From positions 114,763 to 178,762 of the forward strand of contig NZ_HG326655.1 in the NCBI RefSeq assembly GCF_000308295.2: 64,000 nucleotides of DNA, given 5' to 3'. Shown one piece after another: positions 24,280-39,155 of the stretch. The notes under the pieces are model-generated. The model searched no databases and was not told where the DNA came from. It saw only the letters and a list, made by a program, of their open reading frames with translations. The stretch's first letter is position 1, and each line of letters starts with the position of its first letter. This DNA is from Afipia birgiae 34632. GTDB taxonomy: Bacteria > Pseudomonadota > Alphaproteobacteria > Rhizobiales > Xanthobacteraceae. The translations under genes were made by a program, and so were the position numbers.

Positions 24280-25068
24280 ATGGCCAAGGGACAGAAGAAG
24301 GTCGCGCTGGTGACAGGCGCGGCGCGGGGCATCGGACTGGCCGCGGCAAAGCGGTTCCTGGCCGACGGCTGGCGTGTCGTGCTGCTCGACATCGAGAAGG
24401 ACTTGCTCGCGCAGACCTTCGAGACACTCGCCGCACCTGACGCGACCCTGGCGGTCCATTGCGACGTCTCGGACGCTGACGCGGTCGGCGCCGCCTTCAG
24501 GCAGGCGGTTCAGCACTTCGGGCGACTCGACGCGCTGGTCAACAATGCCGGTATCGCGATCTTTAAGCCGCTGCTCGAAACAACGCAAGCCGACTGGGAT
24601 CGTGTGCTGGCGGTCAACCTGACCGGTCCGTTTCTCTGCACCCAGGCGGCAGCCCCGCTGATGCGCGAGAACGGCGGCGGCGCGATCGTGAACATCACCT
24701 CGATCTCGGCGCTTCGCGCCTCGACGCTGCGCACCGCTTATGGCACGAGCAAGGCTGGCCTCGCCCATCTGACCAAACAGTTTGCCGTCGAACTCGCGAC
24801 GCTCGGCATCCGCGTCAACGCTGTCGCGCCGGGCCCGGTCGATACCGCGATGGCCAAGGCGGTTCATACGCACGCGATCCGCGCCGATTATCACGACACC
24901 ATTCCGCTCAACCGCTATGGCCTCGAGGAAGAACTCGCCGAAGCGATCTTCTTCCTGTGCAGCGACCGCGCCAGCTACATCACCGGCCAGATGCTCTCCG
25001 TCGACGGTGGATTTGAAGCCACCGGTATCGGCCTGCCGACGCTGCGCGGCGAAGGCCGCAACGGCTAA
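24280..25068 (+). CDS. SDR family oxidoreductase
   Basis: A classical short-chain dehydrogenase of 262 residues: cofactor motif TGAARGIG (11-18), CDVSD, LVNNAGI, catalytic Ser in NITSISALRAS and Tyr-x3-Lys in AYGTSKAG. The end SVDGGFEATGIG is typical. The acidic residue after beta-2 (LLDIEK) suggests NAD preference. The substrate is unknown. ATG at 24280 follows GGGACGGGAC and starts right before the Rossmann strand. It is divergent from the MFS exporter with a 150-base gap. Confidence 0.88.
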   Translation: MAKGQKKVALVTGAARGIGLAAAKRFLADGWRVVLLDIEKDLLAQTFETLAAPDATLAVHCDVSDADAVGAAFRQAVQHFGRLDALVNNAGIAIFKPLLETTQADWDRVLAVNLTGPFLCTQAAAPLMRENGGGAIVNITSISALRASTLRTAYGTSKAGLAHLTKQFAVELATLGIRVNAVAPGPVDTAMAKAVHTHAIRADYHDTIPLNRYGLEEELAEAIFFLCSDRASYITGQMLSVDGGFEATGIGLPTLRGEGRNG

Positions 25069-25105: not shown

Positions 25106-25495
25106 TTATGCGGCCGCATCTCCCATGTGCATCGATCTCCGGCTGTCTGTTCGCTGCGGGCGGCCGGCCTCGATCCGGGACTGTCCCATGCCGTCGGTAA
25201 TATCCACGATCTGCCTCTGATATTCGGCAAACATCGCGGTCGAGATCCAGTCTTCGTAGTGGTCTTCGGTTTCAAACACGCTGATGAGCAGAGCCGAATT
25301 TCCATCGACGTCGCGATAGACCCGGCCGCCGTGGAAACCGGGAACCCGGTCCGCGAAACGATCGCGCCCCGCTTCCAGCAGGCTCGCGAGTTCGTCGATT
25401 TTTCCCGGCTTGGGCGTGAAACTGTTGATGAGCACGAACGGCCGCGGCGGGCTGTCCTGTGATTGAACCCGGTCCTGATACTTCGCTGCTGGCAT
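25106..25495 (-). CDS. Antibiotic biosynthesis monooxygenase-like (ABM) protein
   Basis: A 129-residue protein with a dimeric alpha/beta barrel ABM fold: FVLINSFTPKPGKIDELASLL, then VPGFHGGRVYRDVDG and VFETEDHYEDWISTAMF. ABM proteins oxygenate quinol or aromatic substrates without cofactors, or degrade haem; the substrate here is unknown. Its promoter carries the SoxR operator at 25578-25595 with a 19-base spacer, so it is the probable SoxR-activated gene, induced by redox-cycling compounds. Confidence 0.8.
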   Translation of the reverse strand: MPAAKYQDRVQSQDSPPRPFVLINSFTPKPGKIDELASLLEAGRDRFADRVPGFHGGRVYRDVDGNSALLISVFETEDHYEDWISTAMFAEYQRQIVDITDGMGQSRIEAGRPQRTDSRRSMHMGDAAA

Positions 25496-25568
25496 GATTT
25501 CATCTCTGATTGGCGGTCAGTCACACGCATGAACATCGCAATGCGATGCTTGCTGAGACGATGAGGGC

Positions 25569-25599
25569 AGCCTAAAACCTCAACCATAGTTGAGGTCAA
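25569..25599 (-). promoter_or_regulatory. SoxR-regulated promoter with SoxR box
   Basis: On the minus strand -35 TTGACC (25599-25594) and -10 TAGGCT (25574-25569) are separated by 19 bases, the overlong spacer that MerR-family activators untwist. The spacer contains the 18-base palindrome CCTCAACCATAGTTGAGG (25578-25595), matching the canonical SoxR box CCTCAA-N6-TTGAGG. It points at the ABM gene, and soxR starts 8 to 11 bases beyond on the other strand. Confidence 0.92.
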
Positions 25600-25602
25600 G
25601 CG

Positions 25603-26064
25603 ATGATGAAGCAAAACAAACCTGCCGGAATTGCACGGGATTTGAGCGTCGGCGAAGTATCCGAGCGCTGCGGGGTTCCGGTCTCCACTCTTCACTTCTA
25701 CGAATCGAAGGGATTGATTTCGAGTTCGCGCAATCGCGGCAACCAGCGCCGCTATCCGCGAGCGGTGTTGCGCCGTGTCGCCGTCATCAAGGTGGCGCAG
25801 AGTACCGGATTGCCGCTGGCGACAATCCGCAATGCGCTGGCGTCGCTGCCCGACGGGCGCGTCCCGACAGTCAAGGACTGGGCCAGACTGTCGGCGGCGT
25901 GGCGCGCCGACCTCGAGGGTCGGATCGCCACGCTGACCCGCCTGCGCGATCAGTTGAGCGGTTGCATCGGATGCGGATGCCTGTCGCTCAAGACCTGCCC
26001 GCTTCGCAATCCGCAGGACAAGGCGCGAGAGCGGGGTCCGGGCGCAAGGTTGTTTGATCGATAG
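25603..26064 (+). CDS. soxR: Redox-sensitive transcriptional activator SoxR
   Basis: A MerR-family regulator of 153 residues: winged HTH ([23 protein letters not shown]), coupling helix, then a [2Fe-2S] cluster site [12 protein letters not shown] with four cysteines in the C-x2-C-x-C-x5-C pattern that defines SoxR. Oxidation of the cluster by redox-active drugs activates target promoters. Starts at ATG 25603 or 25606. It is divergent from the ABM gene and sits next to its own binding site; there is no SoxS gene in the window. Confidence 0.95.
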
Positions 26065-26085: not shown

Positions 26086-26619
26086 TCACTTCTCCGCGAC
26101 GGCCTTCATGCTGGTCAGGCCCTGCTGAAACTGGCCGCCGACCATGCGATCCATCTTGAAGACCATGTGCATGATCTTCGCCATGTAGGGCGCCGGACCA
26201 TGCATGGCCCAAGTGACAGTCGTCGTGCTGCCCAGCGGCCGCATGGTGAACTCGGCGATGTTGTGGGCCTCGAACGGGCTGAAGAAATCCAGCTTGATGA
26301 CGATCTTAGACGACGGCGTCGCATCGAGGATCTCCATGCGGCCGTGGCCGATATTCTTGTTGCCGCTCCACTCGTACACCGAACCCTTGCCGCTCGGCGC
26401 GCCGCTGAAGGTCCGCTGCATGGCGGGATCGACATGCTCGTAGGGCGACCACGATCCCCAATTCTTGTAATCGTTGATCAGCGGGAAGATCTTGTCCGCG
26501 GGCGCATTGATATCGATCGAACGCTCGATGCGGAAAGTGTTCGGCCGTAGCGCGGCGAGGATCAGAACGATCGCGATCACAGCCGCGAGGATGATGGCAA
26601 TATACATCAGGGTGGTCAT
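26086..26619 (-). CDS. SRPBCC family protein (polyketide cyclase-like)
   Basis: A 177-residue protein with an N-terminal membrane anchor (about 4-24) and a START-like SRPBCC lipid/ligand-binding domain (IERSIDINAPADKIFPLINDYKNW...SWSPY). It is the last gene of a five-gene minus-strand operon (arsR, VOC, AHSA1, DoxX-like, this). The ligand is unknown. Confidence 0.82.
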   Translation of the reverse strand: MTTLMYIAIILAAVIAIVLILAALRPNTFRIERSIDINAPADKIFPLINDYKNWGSWSPYEHVDPAMQRTFSGAPSGKGSVYEWSGNKNIGHGRMEILDATPSSKIVIKLDFFSPFEAHNIAEFTMRPLGSTTTVTWAMHGPAPYMAKIMHMVFKMDRMVGGQFQQGLTSMKAVAEK

Positions 26620-26652
26620 GTTACTCTCCGTCTCAGATGTTGAGTTCAGGCG

Positions 26653-27051
26653 TCAGCGACGCCAGGGGAAAATCAAACGCAGCCGCTCGTCGCGCAGATA
26701 AAGCCCGCCCCAGAGCAGGATGCCCAGATAGACGCCGAACAGCGTGTGGCTGAACAGCGGGCTGCCCGCGCGGACGTGCACGTAGATCGCGCCGCCGAGG
26801 TAACCCGTCAGCAGGATCGCGCCGAGCACCGAGGTCCGCGGATACGCATAGAGCAGCGTGCCGACAAGCGTCAGCACGCCAAGGGTAACCGCGAGATTCG
26901 TCGGAATTCCGAGCTGACGCGACGTCTCGATGACGATATCGAGCGGGATCAGCTTGATGGCGCCGTCGAACAGCAGGAACAGGATAACCAGACCGCTGAG
27001 GATGCGTCCGGTCCACAGCGCGGTCGTCGAAATCGGAACAAGTTCGTTCAT
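26653..27051 (-). CDS. DoxX-like family membrane protein
   Basis: A 132-residue protein with four predicted membrane helices and the DoxX-like run ILSGLVILFLLFDGAIKLI. ATG at 27051 was chosen as the start of the conserved region; upstream in-frame sequence overlaps the preceding AHSA1 gene. DoxX-like proteins often accompany AHSA1/VOC genes under ArsR control, as here. The biochemical role is unknown. Confidence 0.82.
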   Translation of the reverse strand: MNELVPISTTALWTGRILSGLVILFLLFDGAIKLIPLDIVIETSRQLGIPTNLAVTLGVLTLVGTLLYAYPRTSVLGAILLTGYLGGAIYVHVRAGSPLFSHTLFGVYLGILLWGGLYLRDERLRLIFPWRR

Positions 27052-27068
27052 GATGCTTGCTCCAGATG

Positions 27069-27599
27069 TCAGGCCTGCAGTGTCGCGAGATACGCGGCGA
27101 GCTGATCCCATGTTCCGCCGTAGCCCTGCGTCATGCTGGCGAAGCCGCCTTCGAACGTCGTGCGCTCTTCGTTCGACGCGTTGAGCGCGACCACGCGATT
27201 GACCAGCAGCGTCTTGCCGCCCTGATCGATGAAGGTCGCGGTGCCCAGCATTTCGATCGGCCATGTCGGCGCCATGGGATGACGGGTCAGGTCGCCGTCC
27301 TTGTCAGAAAACGAGCTGACAAAGACCAGCCGCTCGGGCTTCACAATCTCGCGGAACATCCACTTGCCCCACATCTCGCTGCCGTCCGGCGCCTGCATAC
27401 CGTAGTGGAATGTGCCGCCGGGCTTGAGGTCAAGATTGCCGGCGATCATCTTGAACCCCTTCGGGCCCCACCATTTCATCAGATGGTCTCTCCGGGTAAA
27501 GACCTCCCAGACCAGATCGCGCGGAGCATCGAACACACGCTCGATGACGAATTCCTTGCTGAAAGTTTCTGCCACCGCGGCAGATTGAGTCGAGGCCAT
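27069..27599 (-). CDS. AHSA1/SRPBCC domain protein
   Basis: A 176-residue SRPBCC protein of the activator-of-Hsp90-homologue-1-like group: FVIERVFDAPRDLVWEVFT, WWGPKGF, then LKPGGTFHYGMQ. In bacteria these are ligand-binding helix-grip proteins, not proven Hsp90 partners. Third gene of the ArsR-controlled operon, 17 bases ahead of the DoxX-like gene. Confidence 0.86.
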   Translation of the reverse strand: MASTQSAAVAETFSKEFVIERVFDAPRDLVWEVFTRRDHLMKWWGPKGFKMIAGNLDLKPGGTFHYGMQAPDGSEMWGKWMFREIVKPERLVFVSSFSDKDGDLTRHPMAPTWPIEMLGTATFIDQGGKTLLVNRVVALNASNEERTTFEGGFASMTQGYGGTWDQLAAYLATLQA

Positions 27600-27641
27600 C
27601 TCTTTACTCCGAAAGATGTTTGCTTTTGATGTGTGCTGCGA

Positions 27642-28079
27642 TCAGGCTGCCGGTGCCGGCTGCGGATGCGCGAGACTCCAGCCATGACCGAACGGATCGC
27701 GCACCTGCGCGTAACGCGCGCCCCAGAATGCATCCCAAGGCTCGAGAATCGATGTTGCGCCGGCGGCGATCGCGCGCTTGTAGGCCTCGTCGCAGTTCGG
27801 CACTTCGAGATGGATGAGGAACGTCGAGCCGCCGAGCTTGCCGGGAGATTCCGTCTTGCCGTCGCCGTGGTGGCAGTACTCGGGGAAGTAGTCCATCAAA
27901 TACACCGCCGCGCCATTCACGATCATCTGCGCATGCATCAAACGCTTGCCGTCTTCCGCCGGCATCCGCATGGTTTCGGTCGCGCCGAATGCCTTGCTAT
28001 AGAATGTCAACGCATCAACGGCGCCATCGACCACGAGATGCGGAACGAGCGGCGGAATCTGAACTGGTTGGTCGGCCAT
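27642..28079 (-). CDS. VOC family protein (glyoxalase/PhnB-like)
   Basis: A 145-residue vicinal-oxygen-chelate protein with paired beta-alpha-beta modules (VPHLVVDGAVDALTFYSKAFG; later STFLIHLEVPNCDEAYKRAI and RYAQVRDPFGHGWSLA). Metal-dependent isomerase, dioxygenase or drug-binding roles occur in the family; none can be assigned. Second gene of the ArsR-led operon. Confidence 0.85.
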   Translation of the reverse strand: MADQPVQIPPLVPHLVVDGAVDALTFYSKAFGATETMRMPAEDGKRLMHAQMIVNGAAVYLMDYFPEYCHHGDGKTESPGKLGGSTFLIHLEVPNCDEAYKRAIAAGATSILEPWDAFWGARYAQVRDPFGHGWSLAHPQPAPAA

Positions 28080-28140
28080 GGATAAACTCCTTACTTCGGT
28101 TGGTGCTGATGTGTCCGAACGTCGCCGGGAAGCGGTCCCT

Positions 28141-28536
28141 CTATTTCTTTAGCGGCGCTCGCTGCGGCGATTTCCGCTTTGCCGTCTTGCGGCGCTTTGA
28201 AGAGGCTTCCAGTTTCTCTTTCGCCTGCAACTCGCCGAGATACGCCTCAAGGCGATCCAGTCCCGCCTCCCAGAAGCGGCGATAATTCTCGAGCCAGTCG
28301 TCAACTTCCTTGAGCGCCGCCGGCTCAATCCTGCACGGACGCCACTGCGCCGCGCGACCGCGCGTCACCAGACCGGCATGCTCCAGCACTTTCAGATGCT
28401 TCGACACCGCGGGCATGCTCATGGCGAACGGCTCCGCCAGTTCCGTCACCGACGTCTCGCCGAGCACCAGCCGCGCCAGGATGGCGCGGCGGGTGGGATC
28501 GGCAAGCGCGGCAAATTTGATGCTGAGCGGGTCCAT
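28141..28536 (-). CDS. ArsR family repressor, module A
   Basis: A 131-residue winged-helix regulator (FAALADPTRRAILARLV; recognition helix MSMPAVSKHLKVLEHAGLV) with a Lys/Arg-rich tail. There is no metal-binding Cys pair of the classical ArsR type; it belongs to the subgroup linked to AHSA1 genes. First gene of the minus operon. Two TAACC-N4-GGTTA boxes overlap its promoter, so autoregulation is likely. ATG at 28536 follows GGAG by 7 bases. Confidence 0.9.
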   Translation of the reverse strand: MDPLSIKFAALADPTRRAILARLVLGETSVTELAEPFAMSMPAVSKHLKVLEHAGLVTRGRAAQWRPCRIEPAALKEVDDWLENYRRFWEAGLDRLEAYLGELQAKEKLEASSKRRKTAKRKSPQRAPLKK

Positions 28537-28549
28537 CGAAGCTCCAAGA

Positions 28550-28606
28550 TAACCATTCGGTTAAATAACCTTTTGGTTAAATACTAGCGCCGGGCAAAGC
28601 TGTCAA
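28550..28606 (-). promoter_or_regulatory. Promoter and double ArsR operator, module A
   Basis: On the minus strand TTGACA (28606-28601), a 17-base spacer and TATTTA (28583-28578) form a near-consensus promoter. Two palindromes, TAACC-aaaa-GGTTA (28579-28566) and TAACC-gaat-GGTTA (28563-28550), cover the -10 end and the start of transcription, spaced 16 bases centre to centre. The same palindrome occurs once at the promoter of the second ArsR module (36464-36479). Confidence 0.85.
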
Positions 28607-28644
28607 GCGCGGTATCGGAAAATTCGGAACAGGACCGGGAACAG

Positions 28645-28745
28645 TTCAGATGTCATCACCGGGCATAGCCGCCTGAAGGACGGCGGCGCTTGCTCGCCTA
28701 TGTCCCGGTGATCTCGGGATGCCCGGGACAAGCCCGGGCAGACGG
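28645..28745. repeat. Intergenic palindromic repeat, CCGGGCATAGC type
   Basis: ATCACCGGGCATAG pairs with CTATGTCCCGGTGAT about 30 bases on, followed by the compact hairpin TGCCCGGG-acaag-CCCGGGCA. The layout and the internal GACGGCGGCGCTTGCTCGCC match the repeat at 5998-6121. It lies upstream of the ArsR operon promoter and after the stop of the TIGR02302 gene. Confidence 0.7.
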
Positions 28746-28768
28746 TGGAACAGCAGGAAGCCTAAAAC

Positions 28769-31360
28769 TCAATAATCCTTGAGCAAACGCTCGATGTAAT
28801 CGAGTTCGATCTGCGGCCGCTGCGGGTCGGCGAGACGGCGGCGCAATTCTTCCAGAATTCGGCGCACGCGCTGCACGTCAATCTCGCCGGGAATCTTCAC
28901 GGTGAGATCGTCGCTCCATTCGCGGCCGTTGAGCGGCCGCCCGAGCGGATCGGTGGTGTTGCCGCTGTTCTGCTGACGGCCCATCCGATTACCCGGTCCG
29001 GTGTCCTGCCCTTCGCCCGGCTGCATCGATTGCGCCAGATTCTGCGCGCCCTTGCGCAAGGCTTCGAGTGCGCGGCCCTGCGAATCCACCGCGCCGTCGG
29101 CATTGCCCTGCCCAAGCTGGCTGCCGGCATCGCCCATCGCGGAGTCGGCATCGCCAAGCGAGTCGCCGCCGTCCTGGCCATCCTGTCCCTGACCTTGTTG
29201 GCCCTGCTGACCTTGACCCGGCTGACCCTTTTCGCCGCGCCGGCCCGGCATCATGCCGTTCTTCTTCATGTCGTCGAGCAATTTGCTGAGCCGGTCACGC
29301 AGCGCCTGCTGGTCCTGGCGTAGCCCGTCCATCTGACTCTGATCGCCCTGCTCGCCGCGGCTGCGATCGCGCCGGGATTCCTGCCCCTGCTTGAACGTCT
29401 TGTCGCGCAGTTGCTGCTGCTTGCGGATCATGTCGCCGAGTTCGTTCAGCGCCTGCTCCATGTCGCCGTCGCCCTGCCCGGGCTGCGCCATCTGCAGGTT
29501 TTCCAGCATCTGCTGCATCTGATCGAGCAGCGCCCGCGCGGCATCCTTGTCGCCGGAGCGCGACAACCGCTCCATACGATCGATCATGTTCTTGAGGTCC
29601 TGCTGGCGCATCACCTTGGTATTGGGATCGAGCGGCCGGGCCAGTTGCTGCGGATTGTTACGCAACTGCTCGGCCAACTGGCGCATAAAATTGTCCAGTG
29701 CCGCGCGCAGATTGTCGGTCAGCTTCTTGATCTCTTCGTCGCTGGCGCCGCGCTCCAGCGCCTCCTTGAGCGCATCCTGCGCAGCACGCAACGCCTTCTC
29801 GACATCGGTGATGTTGCCGTCCTCGATCGCAATTGCGAGCGCCCACAGGCTGTCCACGGTCGCCCGCATCGCATCGCGCGTATTGGCTCGGCCGAGCTGG
29901 CTCGCGACGATACGCAGCCCGAGATAATGTCCAAGCTCGGGCGTGAACGCCTCGGGCGCAATCATCAGCGCTTCCAGCGCAATCAGTACCAGCGGCTTCT
30001 GATTGGCGTCGAGTGCGAGGTTGCGGCGCTGCTCGATCAGCGCGCGCGCCAGCGGCTTCACAAACAGGCGTTCCGGCAGCCGCATGTCGAACGGCTCGCT
30101 GCGTCCTTCGTTGCCGGCTTCGTCTTTCGCAGTCAGCGTCAGCGTGACATCTGCGCCGGCGTAAGGATTTTCGCTCAGATCCTTCACCGTCTGGCCGACG
30201 CCGTTGCGCGTGCGCACATTCGGCAATCCGAGCGTGATCGACGGCGGATCGAACAGCGGCTGCGCCTTGGCGCTATCGTCCCCGGCGCCTCCCTCTTTCG
30301 CGGCGCGAGGTGCGAACTGCGCTTGCGCTTCGGTCACGCCGTAATCGTCTTCGAGCTTGTAGGACAACAGCAGCGCCCCCTTGGCCTGCCGCTCGGGATC
30401 CTTGGCGAGTGAGATATTGGGCGCACGATCAGGCACCGCATGGAACGTCCATTGCGGCTGCCCCGAAGGCGAACGGACATGCGCGGTGCCATCACCCGTG
30501 ATGGTGAAATGCCGCTCGTTGGTCCCCTGTGGCGCGTTTCCGGCGACAGGCACTTCTGTTACGCCGCCGCCTGCAGCAACATCGAGCCTGCCGCCGCTGG
30601 ACCGGACAATCAGTGTGCTCGCCGCTGGGACCGAGACAGGCCCCGTCTCCGACTGATGCGCATCCTTGTTCAAGGAGTTGGACAGGATGATCGGCGGACG
30701 GCTGGTGTAGGGCGGCGGCGTCACCCATGCATCGACGCGAACGTTCGCTGCGGAAAACGTGCCGTCCCAGTCGAACGCCGCAACAACCCGCGCGAAACGA
30801 TCGCTGCCGGCGGCGACATAGGTCGCAACCAGCAGCACGACGACCAGCGCACGCAGCGCCCAGGGATCGTGCAGTGCGAGGCGCGGCGACGGCAGACCGG
30901 CGCGGATGCGCTTGATTGACGCCAACGTGCGCGCACGCTGCTCCTGCCACAGCGCCTGCGTAATCGGGTCCTGCGACTTCAGCGTATCGGTCAGCGCCGT
31001 GGCCGGGCGATGGCGAATGCCGGTTCCACGATCGAGCCGCCGCAGCGCGTCCTCGCGTGTTGGCCAGCGAAACCGGACCGCCGGAACCAGCGCCCCGACA
31101 GCCAGCAGCACAAAGACGGCAGAGGCAATGATGCGCGCAACAAGCGGAAGAGCGATCCAGAGACCGGCCCAGGATGCGGCCAGAAAAAGTCCCGCAACCG
31201 TCAGCAGCCGAGCGAGATGCGGCCAGCCGCGTTCCCACGCGACCGCAAGCCGCGCCCGCTGCAAGGCCTGCGCAAGCTGAAGCTGCCGCGCCGATTCAGG
31301 ATCGCGCGGGCGCTCTGATGGGTCTGGTGTCAGTCCGCTCAACCGCTTCTCCAGATTCAC
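28769..31360 (-). CDS. TIGR02302 family protein (DUF4175)
   Basis: An 863-residue alphaproteobacterial protein with two or three membrane segments in the first 200 residues, a large extracytoplasmic middle domain, a helical region (about 490-640) and a striking Gln/Gly/Asp-rich low-complexity region (about 640-830), then a conserved tail (IPGEIDVQRVRRILEELRRR). The family TIGR02302 has no established function. It usually sits near lysA; here a methyltransferase gene and gene debris intervene. Confidence 0.88.
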   Translation of the reverse strand: MNLEKRLSGLTPDPSERPRDPESARQLQLAQALQRARLAVAWERGWPHLARLLTVAGLFLAASWAGLWIALPLVARIIASAVFVLLAVGALVPAVRFRWPTREDALRRLDRGTGIRHRPATALTDTLKSQDPITQALWQEQRARTLASIKRIRAGLPSPRLALHDPWALRALVVVLLVATYVAAGSDRFARVVAAFDWDGTFSAANVRVDAWVTPPPYTSRPPIILSNSLNKDAHQSETGPVSVPAASTLIVRSSGGRLDVAAGGGVTEVPVAGNAPQGTNERHFTITGDGTAHVRSPSGQPQWTFHAVPDRAPNISLAKDPERQAKGALLLSYKLEDDYGVTEAQAQFAPRAAKEGGAGDDSAKAQPLFDPPSITLGLPNVRTRNGVGQTVKDLSENPYAGADVTLTLTAKDEAGNEGRSEPFDMRLPERLFVKPLARALIEQRRNLALDANQKPLVLIALEALMIAPEAFTPELGHYLGLRIVASQLGRANTRDAMRATVDSLWALAIAIEDGNITDVEKALRAAQDALKEALERGASDEEIKKLTDNLRAALDNFMRQLAEQLRNNPQQLARPLDPNTKVMRQQDLKNMIDRMERLSRSGDKDAARALLDQMQQMLENLQMAQPGQGDGDMEQALNELGDMIRKQQQLRDKTFKQGQESRRDRSRGEQGDQSQMDGLRQDQQALRDRLSKLLDDMKKNGMMPGRRGEKGQPGQGQQGQQGQGQDGQDGGDSLGDADSAMGDAGSQLGQGNADGAVDSQGRALEALRKGAQNLAQSMQPGEGQDTGPGNRMGRQQNSGNTTDPLGRPLNGREWSDDLTVKIPGEIDVQRVRRILEELRRRLADPQRPQIELDYIERLLKDY

Positions 31361-31543
31361 TTGAAGTGCAGCCTAGCACGGCGGCGGCAATGAGGCATGG
31401 CCTCAGCCACATACCCACATGCAAGGGGCCTGCCGCAGCCAGATTGCCGCTTTTCACGAAAGCGTGACGCCGCAAGGCTGCGGCCCGATATCGACCTTGT
31501 TCCGGAATGGGCTACGTCACGCGCGCACGACTGTGGAGGCGCT

Positions 31544-32221
31544 ATGACCACCAACGCCAGAAAAGCACTCGCCGGGCTGCTTCGATCGCTTCTGGTCGTC
31601 GCAGCGATATTTTTCATACCGGCCTGGTCGCTCCGCTTCTGGGAAGGCTGGGTCTACATCGCGATCATGGGCGCCGCCTCGGCCGCCATCATTCTGTATC
31701 TCGCGCGGCACGATGACGCGCTGATCGGGCGGCGGCTCAAGGCTGGTCCCGTTGCCGAAAAGGAAAAGAGCCAAAAGATCATTCAAACACTGACAGCGGC
31801 AGCCGGCGTCATTCTGTTTCTGGTTCCCGGCTTCGATTTTCGCTGGCAGTGGTCGGATGTTCCTATGGCCCTGATCGTTCTTGGCGATATCGGCGTCATG
31901 GCGGGATATGTCATCATTTTTCTGGTGTTTCGCGAGAACACCTACGCATCGAGCATCGTCGAAGTCGCCGAGAGCCAGAAGGTTGTCTCGACCGGCCCAT
32001 ATGCTGTTGTCCGGCACCCGATGTATGTCGGAGCAATCGTGCTGTTTCTTGCGACACCGCTAGCGCTCGATTCCTGGTGGGCATTCATACCCGCGATCGT
32101 CCTGAGCGCGATGATCGCCGTACGCCTGATTGATGAAGAGAGATTTCTGGTCACCCATCTGCCCGGCTATGACGACTACCGGCGGAAAGTGCGTGACCGG
32201 CTGATTCCAGGATTGTGGTAG
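31544..32221 (+). CDS. Isoprenylcysteine/phospholipid methyltransferase-like protein
   Basis: A 225-residue integral membrane protein with about five hydrophobic helices and the ICMT/PEMT signature STGPYAVVRHPMYVGA, ending with EERFLVTHLPGYDDYRRKV. These enzymes methylate small lipids or carboxylates using SAM; bacterial substrates are largely unknown. ATG at 31544 follows GGAGG. It is a single gene on the opposite strand to its neighbours, between TIGR02302 and lysA, suggesting later insertion. Confidence 0.82.
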   Translation: MTTNARKALAGLLRSLLVVAAIFFIPAWSLRFWEGWVYIAIMGAASAAIILYLARHDDALIGRRLKAGPVAEKEKSQKIIQTLTAAAGVILFLVPGFDFRWQWSDVPMALIVLGDIGVMAGYVIIFLVFRENTYASSIVEVAESQKVVSTGPYAVVRHPMYVGAIVLFLATPLALDSWWAFIPAIVLSAMIAVRLIDEERFLVTHLPGYDDYRRKVRDRLIPGLW

Positions 32222-32300
32222 ATCGCAACCAAGCGGCAGCGACCAAGCCACGGCCTTGCAGTCCATCGCGCAGACGGTGAATCGCTGTCTGCTCTGCTCA

Positions 32301-32409
32301 TCAATTGAGCTTCGCTCCTGCGGCGTCTACGACCCTGCCCCACCGCTCGTAATCGGTGCGGATCGTCTGTGTGAAGGCGTCAGGTGTCGAGGTCGTGACA
32401 GCAAGACCA
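32301..32409 (-). pseudogene. Bug/TctC family solute-binding protein, C-terminal remnant
   Basis: The minus strand encodes TSTPDAFTQTIRTDYERWGR followed by VVDAAGAKLN and a stop, the standard C-terminus of Bug (tripartite tricarboxylate transporter receptor) proteins. Nothing upstream in this orientation continues the gene. The adjoining plus-strand fragment appears to come from the same family. The remaining sequence from 32222 to 32594 holds no intact gene. Confidence 0.65.
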
Positions 32410-32471
32410 TGCGTAATATTGTCCAGCGTCTGAATGCAGAGATCATCCGCATCGGACCAGAGCAGCAATGA
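32408..32471 (+). pseudogene. Bug/TctC family fragment, opposite orientation
   Basis: The plus strand reads NIVQRLNAEIIRIGPEQQ and a stop. The first part matches the Bug-family motif (xxVxRLNxEIxRIL) that normally precedes the C-terminus. It abuts the minus-strand C-terminal remnant head to head, suggesting an inversion inside a decayed gene. The fragment is short, so the family call is tentative. Confidence 0.4.
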
Positions 32472-32594
32472 GAAGATAATTTTTATTCCGATCCGGACTG
32501 AAAAAGCACCGCCCAGCGCGGCATTTCCGGCGCTCGTGGCCTGTCAGCACTCGCGGCCGGACAGGCGAGCGTTACACCGCAATGCTGACTGCAG

Positions 32595-33854
32595 CTACAA
32601 CCACGGCGCCGTGCGGTCCATCGCGATCAGCGCCTCGGCGTCGATGCGCGGCCGCACCACGGCATACTCGCCATCCTTGACCAGCACCTCGGGCACCAGC
32701 GCGCGCGTGTTGTAGCTGCCGGACTGCACTGCGCCGTAAGCACCGGCTGTCATGATCGCCACAAGATCGCCCGGCTTCGGCTCAGCCATCTTGCGGTCGA
32801 GCGCCAGATAGTCGCCGGTTTCACAGACCGGCCCGACCACATCCGCGGTGAAGTCGCGGGCGTCGTTCTCGCGCACCGGCACAATATCGTGATGCGCCTC
32901 GTACAGCGTCGGGCGAATGAGGTCGTTCATGGCCGCGTCGATGATGACGAAATTCTTCGCATCACCATGCTTCACATAGATCACGCGACTGACAAGAATC
33001 CCGGCGTTGCCGACGATCATGCGCCCGGGCTCGAACATCAATGTCGCATCGATCCCCTTCGTAACGCGCTTGACCATCGCCGCGTATGCAACCGGATCAG
33101 GCGGATTGGGCAAATCGTGCTCATAGGGAATGCCAAGGCCGCCGCCGAAATCGACATGCGAAATGGTGTGACTATCCGCACGTAGCGTACCGACGAATTC
33201 CACCATCAGCTTGAAGGCATCCTCCAGCGGTCCGAGATCAGTGATCTGGCTGCCGATATGCATATCGACGCCGGTGACCTTGATGCCGGGCAGCTTCGCG
33301 GCGCGGGCGTAAACCTCGCGCGCACGGCTCAGCGGAATGCCGAACTTGTTTTCGGACTTGCCGGTGGAGATCTTCGCATGCGTCTTGGCGTCGACATCCG
33401 GATTGATGCGCACCGAAATACGCGCGGTGCGGCCCGTCTCGCTCGCAAGCTTCGACAGCAGTTCGAGTTCAGGCTCGGACTCGACGTTGATGCAGAGAAT
33501 ATCTTCGGCAAGCGCCTGCCGCAGTTCGGCTTCGGTTTTGCCGATCCCGGAGAACAGGATCTTCTGCGGCGGAATGCCCGCAGCGCGGGCGCGCTTCAGT
33601 TCGCCGCCTGATACCACATCGGCGCCCGCGCCGAGCTTGGCGAGCGTGCGAAGCACCGACTGATTGGAATTTGCCTTCATCGCATAGCACACCAGCGTCG
33701 GCACGCCGGCAAAGGCCTCGGCGAAGACGCGGTAGTGACGCTCAAGTGTCGCGGTCGAGTAGCAATAGAACGGCGTCCCCACCTCATCGGCAAGACGGGT
33801 CAAGCTCACGTCTTCGGCGTGCAGCACGCCGTTGCGATACTGGAAATGATTCAT
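32595..33854 (-). CDS. lysA: Diaminopimelate decarboxylase
   Basis: The last step of lysine synthesis: PLP-dependent decarboxylation of meso-diaminopimelate. The 419-residue fold type III enzyme has the PLP lysine in VCYAMKANSN, the HIGSQI segment, the glycine loop FGGGLGIPYE, EPGRMIVGNAG and the C-terminal CETGDYLALDR region with the active-site cysteine. Last gene of an argH-lptM-lysA run on the minus strand; lptM ends 7 bases before its start. Confidence 0.97.
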   Translation of the reverse strand: MNHFQYRNGVLHAEDVSLTRLADEVGTPFYCYSTATLERHYRVFAEAFAGVPTLVCYAMKANSNQSVLRTLAKLGAGADVVSGGELKRARAAGIPPQKILFSGIGKTEAELRQALAEDILCINVESEPELELLSKLASETGRTARISVRINPDVDAKTHAKISTGKSENKFGIPLSRAREVYARAAKLPGIKVTGVDMHIGSQITDLGPLEDAFKLMVEFVGTLRADSHTISHVDFGGGLGIPYEHDLPNPPDPVAYAAMVKRVTKGIDATLMFEPGRMIVGNAGILVSRVIYVKHGDAKNFVIIDAAMNDLIRPTLYEAHHDIVPVRENDARDFTADVVGPVCETGDYLALDRKMAEPKPGDLVAIMTAGAYGAVQSGSYNTRALVPEVLVKDGEYAVVRPRIDAEALIAMDRTAPWL

Positions 33855-33861
33855 GGCAGGA

Positions 33862-34137
33862 TCAATCCAGGATCGCGTCGAGCGGGATCCGCTTTTTTTC
33901 GCCGCGCGGCGCGACCGCGATGCTGCTTGAGCCCGGCGGACGATAAACCTGGCTCTCCAGGTTGGCTACGGAGTTCGGGTCACCCATAACCGCCGTGCCA
34001 CCGTTCTGCCGCTGTTCGGCAACTGCACCGGGCGGAAGGTCGAGGCCCGCCTTGCGACCGCAACCGGCAAGCACGGATGACAATGCGATCAGCCCGATGG
34101 CCGTCAGCTTCGAGAAGGAGTGCGAGCGAGGAGTCAC
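33862..34137 (-). CDS. lptM: LptM-like small outer-membrane lipoprotein
   Basis: A 91-residue lipoprotein: signal peptide with lipobox LAGCGRKAGLDLPP (Cys about 26). The motif CGRKGxLxLP is the LptM (YifL) hallmark. LptM assists maturation of the LPS transporter LptD in enterobacteria; the same role here is inferred. A GTG start at 34137. Located between argH and lysA, as in many proteobacteria. Confidence 0.85.
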   Translation of the reverse strand: MTPRSHSFSKLTAIGLIALSSVLAGCGRKAGLDLPPGAVAEQRQNGGTAVMGDPNSVANLESQVYRPPGSSSIAVAPRGEKKRIPLDAILD

Positions 34138-34219
34138 GTGTCAGTCCTTGAAATTGCGCGCCACCATACAAAGAAGGGGCCGTTCTGGCGAGGCCCGGAT
34201 CAAATGAAATTATCAGGGA

Positions 34220-35617
34220 TCAGCCCGAATTTTGCTCTTTTTCCAGCCGCTTGAGCCATTCCTTGGCCTGTGCGCGGACATTGGCCGGGGCGGTGCCGCC
34301 ATAGCTCGTGCGGCTTTCCACCGAGGCCTGTACGGACAACACGTCCATCACCGAGGCGGTGATTTTCGGCTCAACCGCCTGCATCTCGCTCAGTGGCACC
34401 TTGTGCAGGGCGAGGCCCTGCTCCGCGGCTTTCCCGACGATTCGTCCGGTGACGTGATGCGCGTCGCGGAACGGCATCTTGAGCGTGCGCACCAGCCAGT
34501 CGGCGAGGTCGGTCGCGGTGGCGTAGCCCTCACCGGCCGCCACCTTCATGCGCGCTTCCTCTGGCACCAGATCAAGCGTCATGCCGGTCATGGCGCGGAT
34601 CGCAAGCGAAAGCGCGGCGAATGCTTCCATCGCGCCTTCCTTGTCTTCCTGCATGTCCTTCTGGTAGGCGAGCGGAAGCCCCTTCATCACGATCAGCAAT
34701 GCCGTCAGCGACCCGATAACGCGGCCGGTCTTGGCGCGCACCAGTTCGGCGGCGTCCGGGTTTCTCTTCTGCGGCATAATCGACGAGCCGGTCGTGAACT
34801 TGTCGGACAGGCGCACCAGCCCCACAAGAGGCGACGTCCAGATCACGATCTCCTCGGCGAAGCGCGACAGATGCACCGCTGCAATCGCAGACGCCGACAG
34901 TGTTTCAAGCACGAAGTCGCGATCCGACACCGCGTCCAGGGAATTGGCCATCGGCCGGTCGAACCCGAGCGCGCTCGCGGTGGCGTGACGATCGATCGGA
35001 AATGACGTGCCGGCCAGCGCCGCAGCACCCAGCGGACTTTCGTTCAGCCGCTTGCGGGCGTCCGCGAACCGGCCGCGGTCACGCGAGGCCATTTCCGTGT
35101 AGGCCAGCAGATGGTGACCGAATGTCACAGGCTGCGCGGTCTGCAGATGCGTGAAGCCCGGCATCACTGTGTCGGCGTGCTCGATCGCGCGATCGACCAG
35201 CGCGCGCTGGAACGCGGCCAGCGCCCGGTCGATATCGTCGATGACATCACGCACGTACAACCGGAAGTCGGTCGCAACCTGGTCGTTGCGCGAACGCGCA
35301 GTGTGCAAACGGCCTGCGGCCGGCCCGATCAATTCACCGAGGCGGCTCTCCACATTCATGTGAATGTCTTCGAGCGCGCGCTTGAACGAGAACGAACCCT
35401 TGCCGATTTCTGACAAAATCGTGTCTAGACCGCCCGTGATGTTTTTTGCATCGTTGGCCGTGATAATGCCCTGAGCCGCAAGCATCGCAGCGTGAGCCTT
35501 AGACGCAGCGATATCTTGGGCGTAAAGGTGCTGATCGACGTCGATCGAGACGTTGATTTCCTCCATGATCGCGTCGGGACTTTCACCGAAGCGGCCGCCC
35601 CACATCTTGTTGCTCAT
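34220..35617 (-). CDS. argH: Argininosuccinate lyase
   Basis: The final step of arginine synthesis, splitting argininosuccinate to arginine and fumarate. The 465-residue helical tetramer-type lyase begins MWGGRF and contains [34 protein letters not shown] and the fumarase/aspartase signature [18 protein letters not shown]. Full family length. Its start is 89 bases from the divergent tlpA upstream region. Confidence 0.97.
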
Positions 35618-35733
35618 ATCCTGGTACTCACGCGTTTCTGCTCAGATCCAACCGCCAACCGACACTTTTCCGTCAAACCGTCCGTTTCCTGTACCGCGAC
35701 GGCAACATGACGATTCCAACCGAGACGAGGCCT

Positions 35734-36408
35734 ATGACCAACATCAATCCATCGACGCCCGGTTTGCCCCGCAAGAATGCTTCTCGCATTCGAGTAACCA
35801 TCGTTTCCGCCATTATAACGGCTGCGGCAGGACTGGGTGGGATATACGGGATCGGCGGGTTCATGCGCAATGCGCACGCGCAGGCCCAATGTGCGCCGGC
35901 GGTCGATCTGGCCAAAAAGATCGCCCCTTTGGCGAAAGGCGAGGTCGCCGCATTAACCATGGCCACTGCTCCGCTTCAACTGCCCGATCTCGCGTTCGAG
36001 GATTCCGAGGGCAAGACCAGAAAGCTGTCGGAATGGAAGGGACGCACCGTCCTCGTCAATCTGTGGGCGACCTGGTGCGTGCCATGCCGCACGGAGATGC
36101 CAGCCCTCGACAAGCTGCAGGAAACCCTTGGCGGCGCGGACTTTGAAGTGGTCGCGATCAATATCGACACCCGCGATGCCGAAAAGCCGAAAAAATTTCT
36201 CAAAGAGGCCGCGCTGACCAAGCTCGCCTATTTCCATGACCGGAAGGCGAAGGTGTTTCAGGATCTGAAGAGCGCCGGGCGCGCGCTGGGCATGCCGACC
36301 TCCGTACTGGTCGATGGCGCAGGATGCGAGATCGCGACCCTCGCAGGCCCCGCCGAATGGGCCAGCGATGACGCTTTGAACCTGATCAAGGCCGCCACCG
36401 CGAAATAA
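35734..36408 (+). CDS. tlpA: Thiol:disulfide interchange protein TlpA
   Basis: A membrane-anchored periplasmic thioredoxin of 224 residues: one N-terminal membrane segment, an alphaproteobacterial insert with CAPAVDLAKKIAPLAKGEVAAL, active site WATWCVPCR, cis-Pro MPTSVLV and a second Cys pair partner in GAGCEIATLAG. In Bradyrhizobium TlpA reduces ScoI and the CuA site of cytochrome aa3 oxidase during its assembly. ATG at 35734 follows GAGG; ATG at 35707 is an in-frame alternative. Divergent from argH. Confidence 0.92.
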   Translation: MTNINPSTPGLPRKNASRIRVTIVSAIITAAAGLGGIYGIGGFMRNAHAQAQCAPAVDLAKKIAPLAKGEVAALTMATAPLQLPDLAFEDSEGKTRKLSEWKGRTVLVNLWATWCVPCRTEMPALDKLQETLGGADFEVVAINIDTRDAEKPKKFLKEAALTKLAYFHDRKAKVFQDLKSAGRALGMPTSVLVDGAGCEIATLAGPAEWASDDALNLIKAATAK

Positions 36409-36436
36409 AGCCGCAGGTCCATTTGACGTCGCCCCC

Positions 36437-36479
36437 TTGACGTCGCTTCGCTCGCCTCTATACTTAACCACATGGTTTA
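36437..36479 (+). promoter_or_regulatory. Promoter and ArsR operator, module B
   Basis: TTGACG (36437-36442), a 16-base spacer and TATACT (36459-36464) form a strong promoter whose predicted start falls at about 36471-36472, on or next to the arsR ATG at 36472. The palindrome TTAACC-acat-GGTTTA (36464-36479) covers both the start point and the start codon. No Shine-Dalgarno sequence precedes the ATG, so the mRNA is probably leaderless. Confidence 0.78.
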
Positions 36480-36921
36480 CTATTCTACCGACCGCCTGAA
36501 CCGCGTGTTTGCCGCCGTCGCCGATCCGACGCGGCGCGCATTGCTGGCCGAACTTGAAGGGCGCGACAGCGTCACCATCAGCGAACTGGCGAAACCGTTC
36601 GCGATGTCCCTGCCCGCCGTCATGAAGCACCTCGATGTGCTCTCGGACGCCGGACTGATCACCAGGAGCAAGACAGGCCGCACAGTCACGTGCCGCCTGA
36701 CAGCGGCCCCGATGGAGCAGGCAATGGAATGGCTCAGCCGCTACCAGCGATTCTGGACCGCACAACTCGATCGTCTCGCCGCTTTTGTGGAGAAGGATTT
36801 ATGCTCACCCAGCCAAGCCTCACCCTCGCCCGACGACTCAAAGCCCCAGCCTCCAAAGTCTTCGAAGCGTGGACGGACCCCGCCAAAATCGTCCAGTGGT
36901 TCGGACCCGGACACACCATAG
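36472..36921 (+). CDS. ArsR family repressor, module B
   Basis: A winged-helix regulator like that of module A (VFAAVADPTRRALLAELEG; recognition helix MSLPAVMKHLDVLSDAGLI), with no metal-site cysteines. Conserved sequence ends near residue 110 (FVEKDL); the last 40 or so residues are a Pro/Ser/Lys-rich tail that overlaps the next gene for 121 bases in another frame. Either the tail is real or a stop was lost. It leads an operon of AHSA1, DUF1428 and VOC genes. Confidence 0.88.
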   Translation: MVYYSTDRLNRVFAAVADPTRRALLAELEGRDSVTISELAKPFAMSLPAVMKHLDVLSDAGLITRSKTGRTVTCRLTAAPMEQAMEWLSRYQRFWTAQLDRLAAFVEKDLCSPSQASPSPDDSKPQPPKSSKRGRTPPKSSSGSDPDTP

Positions 36922-37235
36922 GCGACAGCGTAAAGGCCGACATGGATGTGCGCGTCGGCGGGCACTTCCGAATCAACTTCAGCACCGACGACGGCGAATC
37001 GCATCAAGTCGGCGGCAAGTATCTGGAAGTGACGCCCTACCAGCGCCTGGTTTTTAGCTGGGCGTGGCATTCGACGCCGGAGCGGGTCTCGCAGGTAACC
37101 GTGGTGCTGCGCGAGGAAAGCGACGTCACGCTGCTCACGCTGACCCACGACAAGTTCTTCGATGAAGCGGCCCGCGACGGCCATAAGCGCGGCTGGACCG
37201 GAACACTCGACAAGCTCGAGCAATTCTTCGCCTGA
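36801..37235 (+). CDS. AHSA1/SRPBCC domain protein, module B
   Basis: A 144-residue helix-grip protein (LTLARRLKAPASKVFEAWTD, WFGPGHT, VGGHFRINF, LTLTHDKF). ATG at 36801 follows GGAGAAGGA; the longer in-frame start at 36690 lies well within arsR and adds unconserved residues. Translation is probably coupled to arsR through the long overlap. Same family as the AHSA1 gene of module A. Confidence 0.87.
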   Translation: MLTQPSLTLARRLKAPASKVFEAWTDPAKIVQWFGPGHTIGDSVKADMDVRVGGHFRINFSTDDGESHQVGGKYLEVTPYQRLVFSWAWHSTPERVSQVTVVLREESDVTLLTLTHDKFFDEAARDGHKRGWTGTLDKLEQFFA

Positions 37236-37332
37236 CTTCGCGTCAGAGCGCGAGACCTGAGCGGCCCTTTAACACTCACCACCGCCGGATCGTTCGCCGG
37301 CACAAACCTGGAAACCACCAAAGGAGTCTGAA

Positions 37333-37695
37333 ATGCAGTATGTCGATGGATTTGTTCTGCCGGTCCCGAAGAAGAACATGAAAGCCTACACGGCCATGGC
37401 CAAGTTGGCCTGCAAGGTCTGGATCGATCACGGCGCTCTCGATTATCGCGAATGCGTTGCCGAAGACGTCAAGCCCGGCAAGGTCACTTCGTTTCCGCAG
37501 AGCGTGAAGCTGAAGGCCGGTGAGACCGTGGTCTTCTCCTGGATCACCTACAAGTCGCGCAAGCATCGCGACAGCGTGATGAAAAAGGTGATGGCGGATC
37601 CGCGCCTCGCAAAAATGATGAATGATCCGAAAAATATGCCCTTCGATGGCAAGCGCATGTTCTGGGGCGGCTTCGACACCTTCGTTACGGCGTGA
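37333..37695 (+). CDS. DUF1428 family protein
   Basis: A 120-residue protein beginning MQYVDGFVLPVPKKNMKAY, with FPQSVKLKAGETVVFSWI and MPFDGKRMFWGGFDTF, the DUF1428 (YbaA-like) signature; a dimeric alpha/beta barrel fold is expected. Function unknown. AAAGGAG lies 6 bases before the ATG. It belongs to the ArsR module B operon. Confidence 0.88.
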   Translation: MQYVDGFVLPVPKKNMKAYTAMAKLACKVWIDHGALDYRECVAEDVKPGKVTSFPQSVKLKAGETVVFSWITYKSRKHRDSVMKKVMADPRLAKMMNDPKNMPFDGKRMFWGGFDTFVTA

Positions 37696-37739
37696 TCTGC
37701 GCCACCCGCTCATTGCTTTGACACACAAGGAGTCACGCC

Positions 37740-38216
37740 ATGCAAAAGATCGTGCCCTGCCTGTTCTTCGACGGCAAAGCCGAAGACGCCGTCAACTTCT
37801 ACAAGTCCGTCTTCAAGTCCGCCAAGATCGGACACATCGCCCGCTACGGCGACAACATGCCGATGCCCAAGGGCTCGGTCATGACGGCAGAACTTGAGAT
37901 CGAGGGACAGAAGTTCTTGGCGCTGAACGGACCTCCGATGTTCTCCTTCTCACCAGCCATCTCGTTCATGGTGAACTGCGAAACCCAGCAGGACATCGAC
38001 CACTATTGGGAGAAGCTCTCCGAAGGCGGCGAGACGCAGCAGTGCGGCTGGCTCAAGGACAAGTTCGGCGTGTCGTGGCAGGTCATTCCGAACGAGATGC
38101 CCCATCTGATGGGGGGCGCGTCGCCCGCGCAGTCGCAGAAGGTGATGGAGGCGGTCATGAAGATGACCAAGCTCGACATCAAAGCATTGAAACAGGCCTA
38201 TGAGCAGGCAGCCTAG
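37740..38216 (+). CDS. PhnB-like VOC family protein
   Basis: A 158-residue protein of the PhnB/3-dmu-9 VOC group: [20 protein letters not shown], then [19 protein letters not shown] and [16 protein letters not shown]. Family members are often labelled ubiquinone methyltransferase by old transitive annotation; no methyltransferase motif is present. Preceded by AAGGAG. Fourth gene of ArsR module B. Confidence 0.88.
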
Positions 38217-38241
38217 CGCGACGCACCGCTACGAGTTCCCT

Positions 38242-38271
38242 GACCGGAATGACGTCAATGTCATTCCGGTC
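38242..38271 (+). repeat. Perfect 12-base inverted repeat
   Basis: GACCGGAATGAC-gtcaat-GTCATTCCGGTC forms a perfect 12-bp stem with a 6-base loop between two VOC genes. There is no T-tract, so it is more likely an mRNA processing or stability hairpin, or a dispersed repeat, than an intrinsic terminator. Confidence 0.8.
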
Positions 38272-38358
38272 CCCGGGGGCGCAACCAATCTCTACACCCG
38301 CGCGTTTCATGCCGCGTGGGCGCAAGCCGAAACCATCGTGATGCAAAGGAGTGCAGCC

Positions 38359-38748
38359 ATGTTGAAAACAAGCCATGCATTCAGCGGCTTCTCGACCAAT
38401 GACATCGGCAAAGCGAAGGAATTTTACGGCCGCACGCTGGGACTTGAAGTGTCCGAAGAGCACGGAATCCTGAACCTGCATCTCGGCGGCGGCGCCGATG
38501 TGCTGATCTATCCAAAAGCCAACCATGCGCCGGCGACATTCACCGTGCTCAATTTTCCCGTCGACGACGTCGACAAGGCAGTCGACGAGCTTGTTAAACG
38601 CGGCGTCCATTTCGAGATTTACAACGATCCCGGCATCAAGACCGACGACAAGGGCATCTCCCGCGGTAACGGCGGCCCCACCATCGCCTGGTTCAAGGAT
38701 CCCGCAGGCAATATCCTGTCCGTGCTTGATATCAGCGGCACAATGTAG
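38359..38748 (+). CDS. VOC family protein
   Basis: A 129-residue glyoxalase-fold protein ([52 protein letters not shown]). ATG at 38359 follows AAAGGAG by 7 bases. Separated from the previous gene by 142 bases that contain the inverted repeat at 38242-38271. Likely part of, or appended to, ArsR module B. Confidence 0.86.
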
Positions 38749-38777
38749 CGCCCAGACGACCGATGAGGGAGACCGCC

Positions 38778-39155
38778 ATGACGTCGCACGGCCATTTTCA
38801 CTGGAACGAACTCGTCACGCCCGACGCCAAACGCGCCATGCAGTTCTATCAGACGACCATCGGCTGGACGTTCGAGCCGATGCCGATGGAGGACGGCGCC
38901 ACCTACTGGGTCGCCTATGCCGGCGGCGAAATGGCCGCGGGAATTTTCCCGACCGATCGCCCGGCGTTTGAGGGCGTTCCGGAAGGCTGGATGTCATATC
39001 TGGCGGTGGACGATGTGGATGCGCGCGTGAAGACCGCTGTCGCGGCAGGCGCGCAACTGATGCGGCCGATTTTCGATGTGCCGCATGTCGGCCGCATCGC
39101 GATCCTGACCGAACCCGGCGGTGCCGGAATCGGGTGGATCACGCCGGTCTCCTGA
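38778..39155 (+). CDS. VOC family protein
   Basis: A 125-residue glyoxalase/bleomycin-resistance type protein (FHWNELVTPDAKRAMQFYQ, SYLAVDDVDARVKTAVAAG, AILTEPGGAGIGWITP). ATG at 38778 follows GAGGGAG; an in-frame ATG at 38763 is less well placed. The third VOC gene in a row here, and the last gene of the run before a convergent small gene. Confidence 0.86.
   Translation: MTSHGHFHWNELVTPDAKRAMQFYQTTIGWTFEPMPMEDGATYWVAYAGGEMAAGIFPTDRPAFEGVPEGWMSYLAVDDVDARVKTAVAAGAQLMRPIFDVPHVGRIAILTEPGGAGIGWITPVS

Follow-up and report, generated by a model that had tools for sequence, protein, structure and literature searches.

Two ArsR-headed modules of Afipia birgiae with a common operator: predicted autorepression of small-molecule-binding proteins, a start codon within one operator and a long arsR/AHSA1 overlap

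A 64,000-nucleotide stretch of the genome of Afipia birgiae 34632 (contig NZ_HG326655.1, positions 114,763 to 178,762; hereafter the window) carries two gene runs, here called modules A and B, each headed by a gene for an ArsR-type repressor followed by genes for AHSA1/SRPBCC, VOC and other proteins. The operator initially annotated at both promoters is supported as a real element, common to two ArsR repressors with small-molecule-binding cargo, and our analysis suggests that each module is probably a ligand-released, self-repressed operon, i.e. that the two repressors would be locally acting autorepressors of small-molecule-binding proteins, whose role is probably to deal with a toxic compound. 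This arrangement is known in outline from the ArsR-COG3832 pairs and from the autorepressor Rv2034; what is new is the start codon within the operator of module B and the dual-coding overlap that follows it. The sites and genes on which these statements depend are the following.

36437-36442 and 36459-36464, plus strand: -35 and -10 elements of the predicted module B promoter, TTGACG-16-TATACT
36460-36483, plus strand: operator B, ATACTTAACC-ACAT-GGTTTACTAT, 16-bp core at 36464-36479, overlapping the predicted -10 box and holding the arsR start codon and codons 2-4
36472-36921, plus strand: module B arsR, encoding 149 aa, with a predicted leaderless mRNA and a tail (residues 114-149) predicted to be disordered
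36789-36796, plus strand: Shine-Dalgarno-like GGAGAAGG for AHSA1, within arsR codons
36801-36921, plus strand: out-of-frame overlap of arsR and AHSA1, 121 nt
36801-37235, plus strand: module B AHSA1/SRPBCC protein (Pfam), 144 aa from this start
28601-28606 and 28578-28583, minus strand: -35 and -10 elements of the module A promoter, TTGACA-17-TATTTA, a prediction only
28565-28580, minus strand: operator A1, TTAACCAAAAGGTTAT, overlapping the predicted -10 and transcription start
28549-28564, minus strand: operator A2, TTAACCGAATGGTTAT, 16 bp downstream of A1, in tandem
28141-28536, minus strand: module A arsR, encoding a 131-aa winged-helix repressor (HTH_20) with a single Cys in WRPC and a Lys/Arg-rich tail

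The initial annotation had placed TTAACC-N4-GGTTAA palindromes over the transcription start of both promoters. The palindromes stand, and their position holds as a promoter prediction; the exact form is absent from the whole genome (5.33 Mb scanned, the window lying on its contig C4), and instead of one site per promoter there are three, two in tandem at A and one at B, each with one mismatch. Scanning of the window at up to 2 mismatches returned 4 matches versus 0.30 in shuffles, the fourth of which, at 12554, is unrelated. In the genome, one mismatch yields four places, i.e. the two at arsR-A, the one at arsR-B and one on another contig (C3:76092), which follows one open reading frame (ORF) by 16 nt and precedes another, NAD-kinase-like in our reading, by about 300 nt. 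Relaxing the search to 2 mismatches speaks against the motif, with 40 places found versus 73 for a reversed-pattern control; loose matching is thus noise and uninformative, and the evidence for the operator therefore rests on its evolutionary conservation. Among orthologous loci it is retained within 2 mismatches in 27/30 A and 30/30 B loci, at or just before the arsR start, the rest of these loci (185,205 positions) containing only one such match. In A it takes the form of a tandem pair with a 16-bp period, TATTTAACC-N4-GGTTATTTAAC-N4-GGTT (no more than 5 summed mismatches in 25 of the 30 loci), and in B that of a longer single palindrome, ATACTTAACC-N4-GGTTAAGTAT. Exact patterns were then searched blind to genes, with our own genome included in each count: the B pattern gave 39 matches in 38 of 148 family genomes and 6 matches in 5 of 289 class genomes, the A pattern 14 matches in 14 of the 148, and the reversed-pattern control 0 in both family scans and 1 (genome G238) in the class scan. 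These matches provided 49 loci (48 distinct places). A script placed an A/B-type arsR start at the site in 48 of the 49; for the remaining locus, L265, truncated by a contig end, the coordinates agree with such a start, and the 9 family matches without loci coincide with arsR-B coordinates. Every exact match found in these genomes sits at an A/B-type arsR promoter. A sharply defined operator, whose exact form occurs only at such promoters in the scans made, offers ready reporters for finding the inducer.

A wide regulon, to be defined by motif scanning as first proposed, was seen neither in the genome scan nor in the exact-pattern family scans, the place on C3 being the only one-mismatch site beyond the A and B promoters. 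Two 2-mismatch places that were inspected are not arsR promoters, places of this kind being otherwise checked only upstream of 20 ArsR-like matches. Elsewhere in the same genome, an ArsR-AHSA1 unit at G000:C4:58168-58494 (L025, L104) carries the operator in a tandem variant of CAACC type (TTCAACCAAAAGGTTGTTAACTGATAGGTTGAA), and a more distant ArsR paralogue at G000:C1:485715 (L027) has GCAACC-N4-GGTTGC just upstream, which suggests AACC-N4-GGTT as a wider family core.

In module B the arsR ATG stands in the middle of the palindrome, the right arm of which encodes ArsR residues 2-4 (usually MVYY or MVKY), a feature missed in the initial annotation. The start codon lies within the operator in 120 of 123 distinct B loci, the script count of 121/124 having been corrected for one locus in which no operator can be recognised (10 mismatches; probably L158, where the contig starts with the gene). 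In the remaining three (L141, L142, L152) it is shifted downstream and the operator is kept, which argues that the constraint lies on the DNA element itself. The promoter consensus is Ttgacg...TATACTtAACcatATGGTTaAgTAT; TTGAC occurs 34-37 nt before the ATG in 117 of 119 orthologous B promoters, and the -10 hexamer, TATACT in 72 of the 119, ends 7 nt before it. Given this spacing, the module B arsR mRNA is probably leaderless. Transcription-start mapping in Bradyrhizobium japonicum, a relative, put 192 starts exactly at a start codon (PMC4842269).

The second feature missed at first reading is the 121-nt overlap between arsR and AHSA1, the latter being read in the -1 frame relative to the former. 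Same-strand overlaps in bacteria usually involve only a few bases. A mechanical ORF call begins the AHSA1 gene of module B with the GTG at 36690; judged by conservation and by the Shine-Dalgarno-like site, the start falls at 36801. For the comparison, 131 B loci were cut to 124 by dropping 7 with identical 220-nt cores, and in 1 of the 124 no AHSA1 was detected; the set includes Bradyrhizobium, Inquilinus, Reyranella, Paraburkholderia and Caballeronia. The overlap spans 91-151 nt in 122 of the 123 remaining loci, the only one under 91 nt being L139, with 1 nt, and a Shine-Dalgarno-like 4-mer precedes AHSA1 inside arsR in 121/122 orthologues. L139 (G016) and L140 (G059; overlap of 139 nt), which belong to the same genus, form a natural contrast on coupling. 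The stretch also bears a codon signature, counted with L139 left out in addition: at the AHSA1 codon coinciding with the usual arsR stop, ATA makes up 35 of 57 Ile codons and CTA 33 of 45 Leu codons, whereas the rest of these genes uses ATA for about 2% of 372 Ile and CTA for about 1% of 1063 Leu. Loci with ATC or CTC at this codon have the arsR stop further on, by one codon in 11 of them and by 10 codons in 14 (Afipia and its kin), in 11 of these 14 again through ATA. Since rare ATA and CTA codons in AHSA1 preserve the stop of the other gene, both reading frames of the overlap appear to be under selection, and the overlap stands out as a long, conserved piece of dual-coding DNA marked by these rare codons.

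Synonymous resampling points in the same direction: 160 stops in the arsR frame would be expected within the overlap and 0 were observed (mean chance of an open frame 0.20 per locus), versus 66 expected and 68 observed in the next 35 codons, and inside the overlap CTG never encodes Leu before a codon starting with A (0 of 261 cases), versus 128 of 254 downstream. Several points weigh against reading these figures at face value. The way the overlap is defined already accounts in part for the zero stops in the arsR frame and for the missing CTG before codons that start with A; the third, unused frame is also short of stops (14 versus 53 expected); the codon-column test, free of the definition problem, treats related loci as independent; and its control, 52 non-overlapped AHSA1 genes, holds 4 CTA among 37 Leu and no Ile at that column. 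The ArsR tail encoded by the overlap (residues 114-149 of ArsR-B) is predicted to be disordered (pLDDT under 50). Its net charge is 7.0, versus 10.8 expected when AHSA1 codons are resampled synonymously; with a tail less basic than predicted, selection for a basic tail was rejected, and the comparison gives no sign of a tail function. A programmed -1 frameshift yielding an ArsR-AHSA1 fusion was also rejected, an in-phase canonical slippery heptamer occurring in only 6 of 122 loci. The overlap is not a general trait of ArsR-AHSA1 pairs either: in a comparison of 10 loci, 11 other pairs overlap by no more than 17 nt or are gapped, and 3 B pairs overlap by 106-124, making the long overlap look like a trait of the B clade.

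The two repressors are 54% identical over 101 aa, and ArsR-B is 100% identical over 110 aa to the ArsR of Afipia massiliensis and of an Afipia metagenome-assembled genome. The putative recognition helices of the A and B repressors are similar (SMPAVSKHL and SLPAVMKHL). In the genome, HTH_20 gives 17 matches above the Pfam cut-off and 20 at E up to 0.001; a midpoint-rooted tree built from 40 ArsR proteins places B in one clade (91/88) and A in another (88/94), which also includes two further paralogues from the same genome that are closer to A than B is. That the repressors lack metal cysteines, as initially stated, is confirmed: neither sequence contains a CxC motif, and each core domain holds one Cys, at a common alignment column that follows the wing (C68 of ArsR-A and C74 of ArsR-B), ArsR-B carrying a second one in its tail. 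Reading the modules as ordinary metal-sensing ArsR/SmtB operons would agree with the NCBIfam model NF033788 ('metalloregulator ArsR/SmtB'), which matches both repressors above its cut-off of 55 (85.3 and 64.6 bits); the missing CxC, the single Cys per core domain and the absence of any metal transport or reduction family from either module make this reading very unlikely. The SdpR autorepressor model NF033789 leaves both below its cut-off of 100 (60.5 and 59.9 bits).

The shared-column Cys suggests another way of sensing, a thiol switch in which an electrophile or oxidant would react with this residue and release the repressor. It is present in 30/30 A and 24/30 B orthologues and invariant in 21 aligned B proteins, and relatives carry glutathione S-transferase (GST) and CxxC-bearing DUF899 cargo; six B orthologues of one genus, however, have Val at this position and keep the operator, so that the Cys is not a universal sensor, and we hold a thiol switch to be unlikely. 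In these six loci (L082, L084, L086, L087, L088 and L090; genus g24) the operator is upstream of a relocated start codon.

Both modules sharing one operator specificity, each repressor could bind both promoters; we regard cross-binding in vitro as likely, and cross-regulation of A and B in the cell as plausible. The initial annotation had gone further in calling cross-regulation likely, which does not follow, since the A operator is kept equally well without B: its mean best mismatch is 1.4 in 10 A-only loci and 1.5 in 20 loci with both modules, and a common ancestral operator suffices to explain the likeness. The two repressors may thus be insulated, the ancestral core being kept with no mutual regulation owing to different flanks, a tandem as opposed to a single site, and local synthesis. 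Such insulation agrees with the A-only operators, with the separate clades of A and B and the two same-genome paralogues closer to A, and with the distribution among 149 family genomes, where A occurs in 41, B in 56, both in 25 and an A- or B-type arsR in 72, leaving 31 with B and no A and 16 with A and no B. It is at odds with the identical half-sites and similar putative recognition helices, with the diverged operators of same-genome A-clade paralogues (TTCAACC...GGTTG at C4:58 kb; an unlike one at C1:1509 kb), and with a co-occurrence of A and B above expectation (25 versus 15.4; Fisher p 0.0003, relatedness ignored), the modules being neighbours in genomes of three genera. On balance we regard insulation as a serious possibility, a little short of an even chance.

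From the computed genes, operator (with its conservation and position), overlap and codon signature we infer repression, leaderless transcription, ligand class and coupling along the following lines. An ArsR dimer would occupy the AACC-N4-GGTT-type palindrome that covers its own operon's -10 box and transcription start, blocking RNA polymerase until released by an organic compound, probably hydrophobic or electrophilic and not a metal. Release would turn on small binding proteins (AHSA1/SRPBCC, VOC and DoxX-like, in relatives also GST and DUF899) that may sequester the compound or detoxify it through thiols, within a local regulon comprising the operon itself and perhaps a neighbour. In module B the arsR mRNA would begin at or next to its AUG, the operator thereby also supplying the start codon. 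With arsR extending over the first 121 nt of AHSA1 in a different frame and containing the putative AHSA1 ribosome-binding site, AHSA1 translation would be coupled to that of arsR, tying production of the binder to translation of the repressor. It is tempting to speculate, with some reserve, that arsR-AHSA1 of module B is a compact control unit locked in by evolution, in which one 24-bp element combines the operator with a portion of the core promoter, the translation start and the first repressor codons, and in which the conserved overlap of 91-151 nt leads translation of the repressor across the start site of the binder; repression and binder synthesis would then be coupled both transcriptionally and translationally, in Alphaproteobacteria and some Burkholderiales.

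As for the ligand, the nearest solved structure by sequence to the VOC protein of A is the mitomycin-binding protein (2a4w; best at 40.9 bits), and CalU16 (4fpw) is among the weaker solved relatives of the AHSA1 of B, at 35.2 bits and not the best; these are distant relatives that do not imply the same ligand, and provide family-level hints toward organic ligands. Bacterial AHSA1 proteins have the Bet v 1 fold, members of which bind large hydrophobic compounds (PMC2577659, in excerpt). No ligand for such modules was found in the portions of the related literature covered, and titles and abstract beginnings revealed no operator or overlap like these. Besides the variable Cys, the proposed release by an organic compound has to accommodate that the cargo families are generic and that, by Pfam, neither GST nor DUF899 occurs in modules A and B of the window.

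Describing the system as undescribed, as the initial annotation did, is too strong, because pairs of ArsR with COG3832 (AHSA1) proteins and without metal motifs were published in 2009 (Makarova et al., PMC2701414; this and the papers cited below are represented by excerpts). Like those pairs, the modules combine an ArsR without metal motif and a nearby AHSA1, with multiple copies per genome, and a role in stress or antibiotic resistance is suspected there as here; unlike them, they are operons of five to six genes, and an operator, a start codon within it and a long dual-coding overlap, all present here, were not found in the excerpted text of that paper. The same authors listed ArsR-COG3832 as a candidate toxin-antitoxin (TA) system with lineage-specific expansions, which would make AHSA1 the toxin and ArsR the antitoxin, and Rv2035-Rv2034 is among the listed mycobacterial TA candidates (PMC3968373). 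Yet they themselves favour antibiotic resistance for the pair, a COG3832 protein of Stenotrophomonas showed no toxicity either in E. coli or in the host it comes from (PMC7650669), and the modules carry five to six genes rather than two, all of which renders a TA-like function highly improbable. Closer in layout is Rv2034 of M. tuberculosis, which represses itself via CCGTAAGT-N4-ACTTACGG (PMC3338718): Rv2034-Rv2035-Rv2036 likewise has an N4-spaced palindrome at its own promoter, an SRPBCC (polyketide_cyc2) gene next and overlapping coding sequences. It differs from modules A and B in those half-sites, CCGTAAGT and ACTTACGG, and in its further reported targets, dosR and phoP. The best match of ArsR-B in both sequence and fold is RHA00566 (PDB 3f6o), an uncharacterised ArsR of Rhodococcus RHA1; the metal sensors CadC and SmtB have the winged-helix ArsR fold in common with the repressors described here, which lack their CxC-type metal cysteines.

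The gene families and coordinates first claimed for both modules were borne out by Pfam. Besides the genes given above, the modules comprise:

27642-28079, minus strand: module A VOC protein (Pfam)
27069-27599, minus strand: module A AHSA1/SRPBCC protein (Pfam)
26653-27051, start inferred, minus strand: module A DoxX-like protein (DoxX_2; Pfam)
26086-26619, minus strand: module A Polyketide_cyc2/SRPBCC protein (Pfam) with a hydrophobic segment at its N-terminus
37333-37695, plus strand: module B DUF1428 protein (Pfam)
37740-38216, plus strand: module B PhnB-type VOC protein (PF06983; Pfam)
about 38359-38748, start inferred, plus strand: module B VOC protein (Pfam)
38763-39155, plus strand: last VOC protein of module B, close to Rv0577 (3oxh, 150 bits)

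These are runs of five genes in A and six in B, not stable two-gene units, and in A the order arsR-VOC-AHSA1 leaves AHSA1 not directly beside arsR. The modules are not recent copies of each other, as their AHSA1 proteins are only 26% identical over 80 aa. Of 117 B loci with 3 kb of downstream sequence, 116 have AHSA1 at arsR, and DUF1428 is found in 73, DUF899 in 65, VOC of the VOC_B6 type in 41, PhnB in 38 and GST in 32; DUF899 bears a weak resemblance, below the Pfam cut-off, to AhpC/TSA and holds a CxxC. By coordinates, A and B lie no more than 10 kb apart in 8 of the 25 family genomes holding both. Three genomes from two other genera (G143; G075 and G045) show the order argH-TlpA-(B)-(A)-fadB-etfA, with flanking gene names read from translations; in Afipia, lysA-argH has module A on its opposite side.

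Next to module A, at 25106-26064, soxR (plus strand; TIGR01950, 215.7 bits against a cut-off of 116.9) lies beside a divergent ABM monooxygenase gene; between the two stands CCTCAACCATAGTTGAGG, which resembles a SoxR box. In G065 (L097), too, soxR adjoins module A. An SDR gene is found near module A at 24300-25068, and SDR genes flank the modules in G025, G065, G087, G123, G143, G075 and G038.

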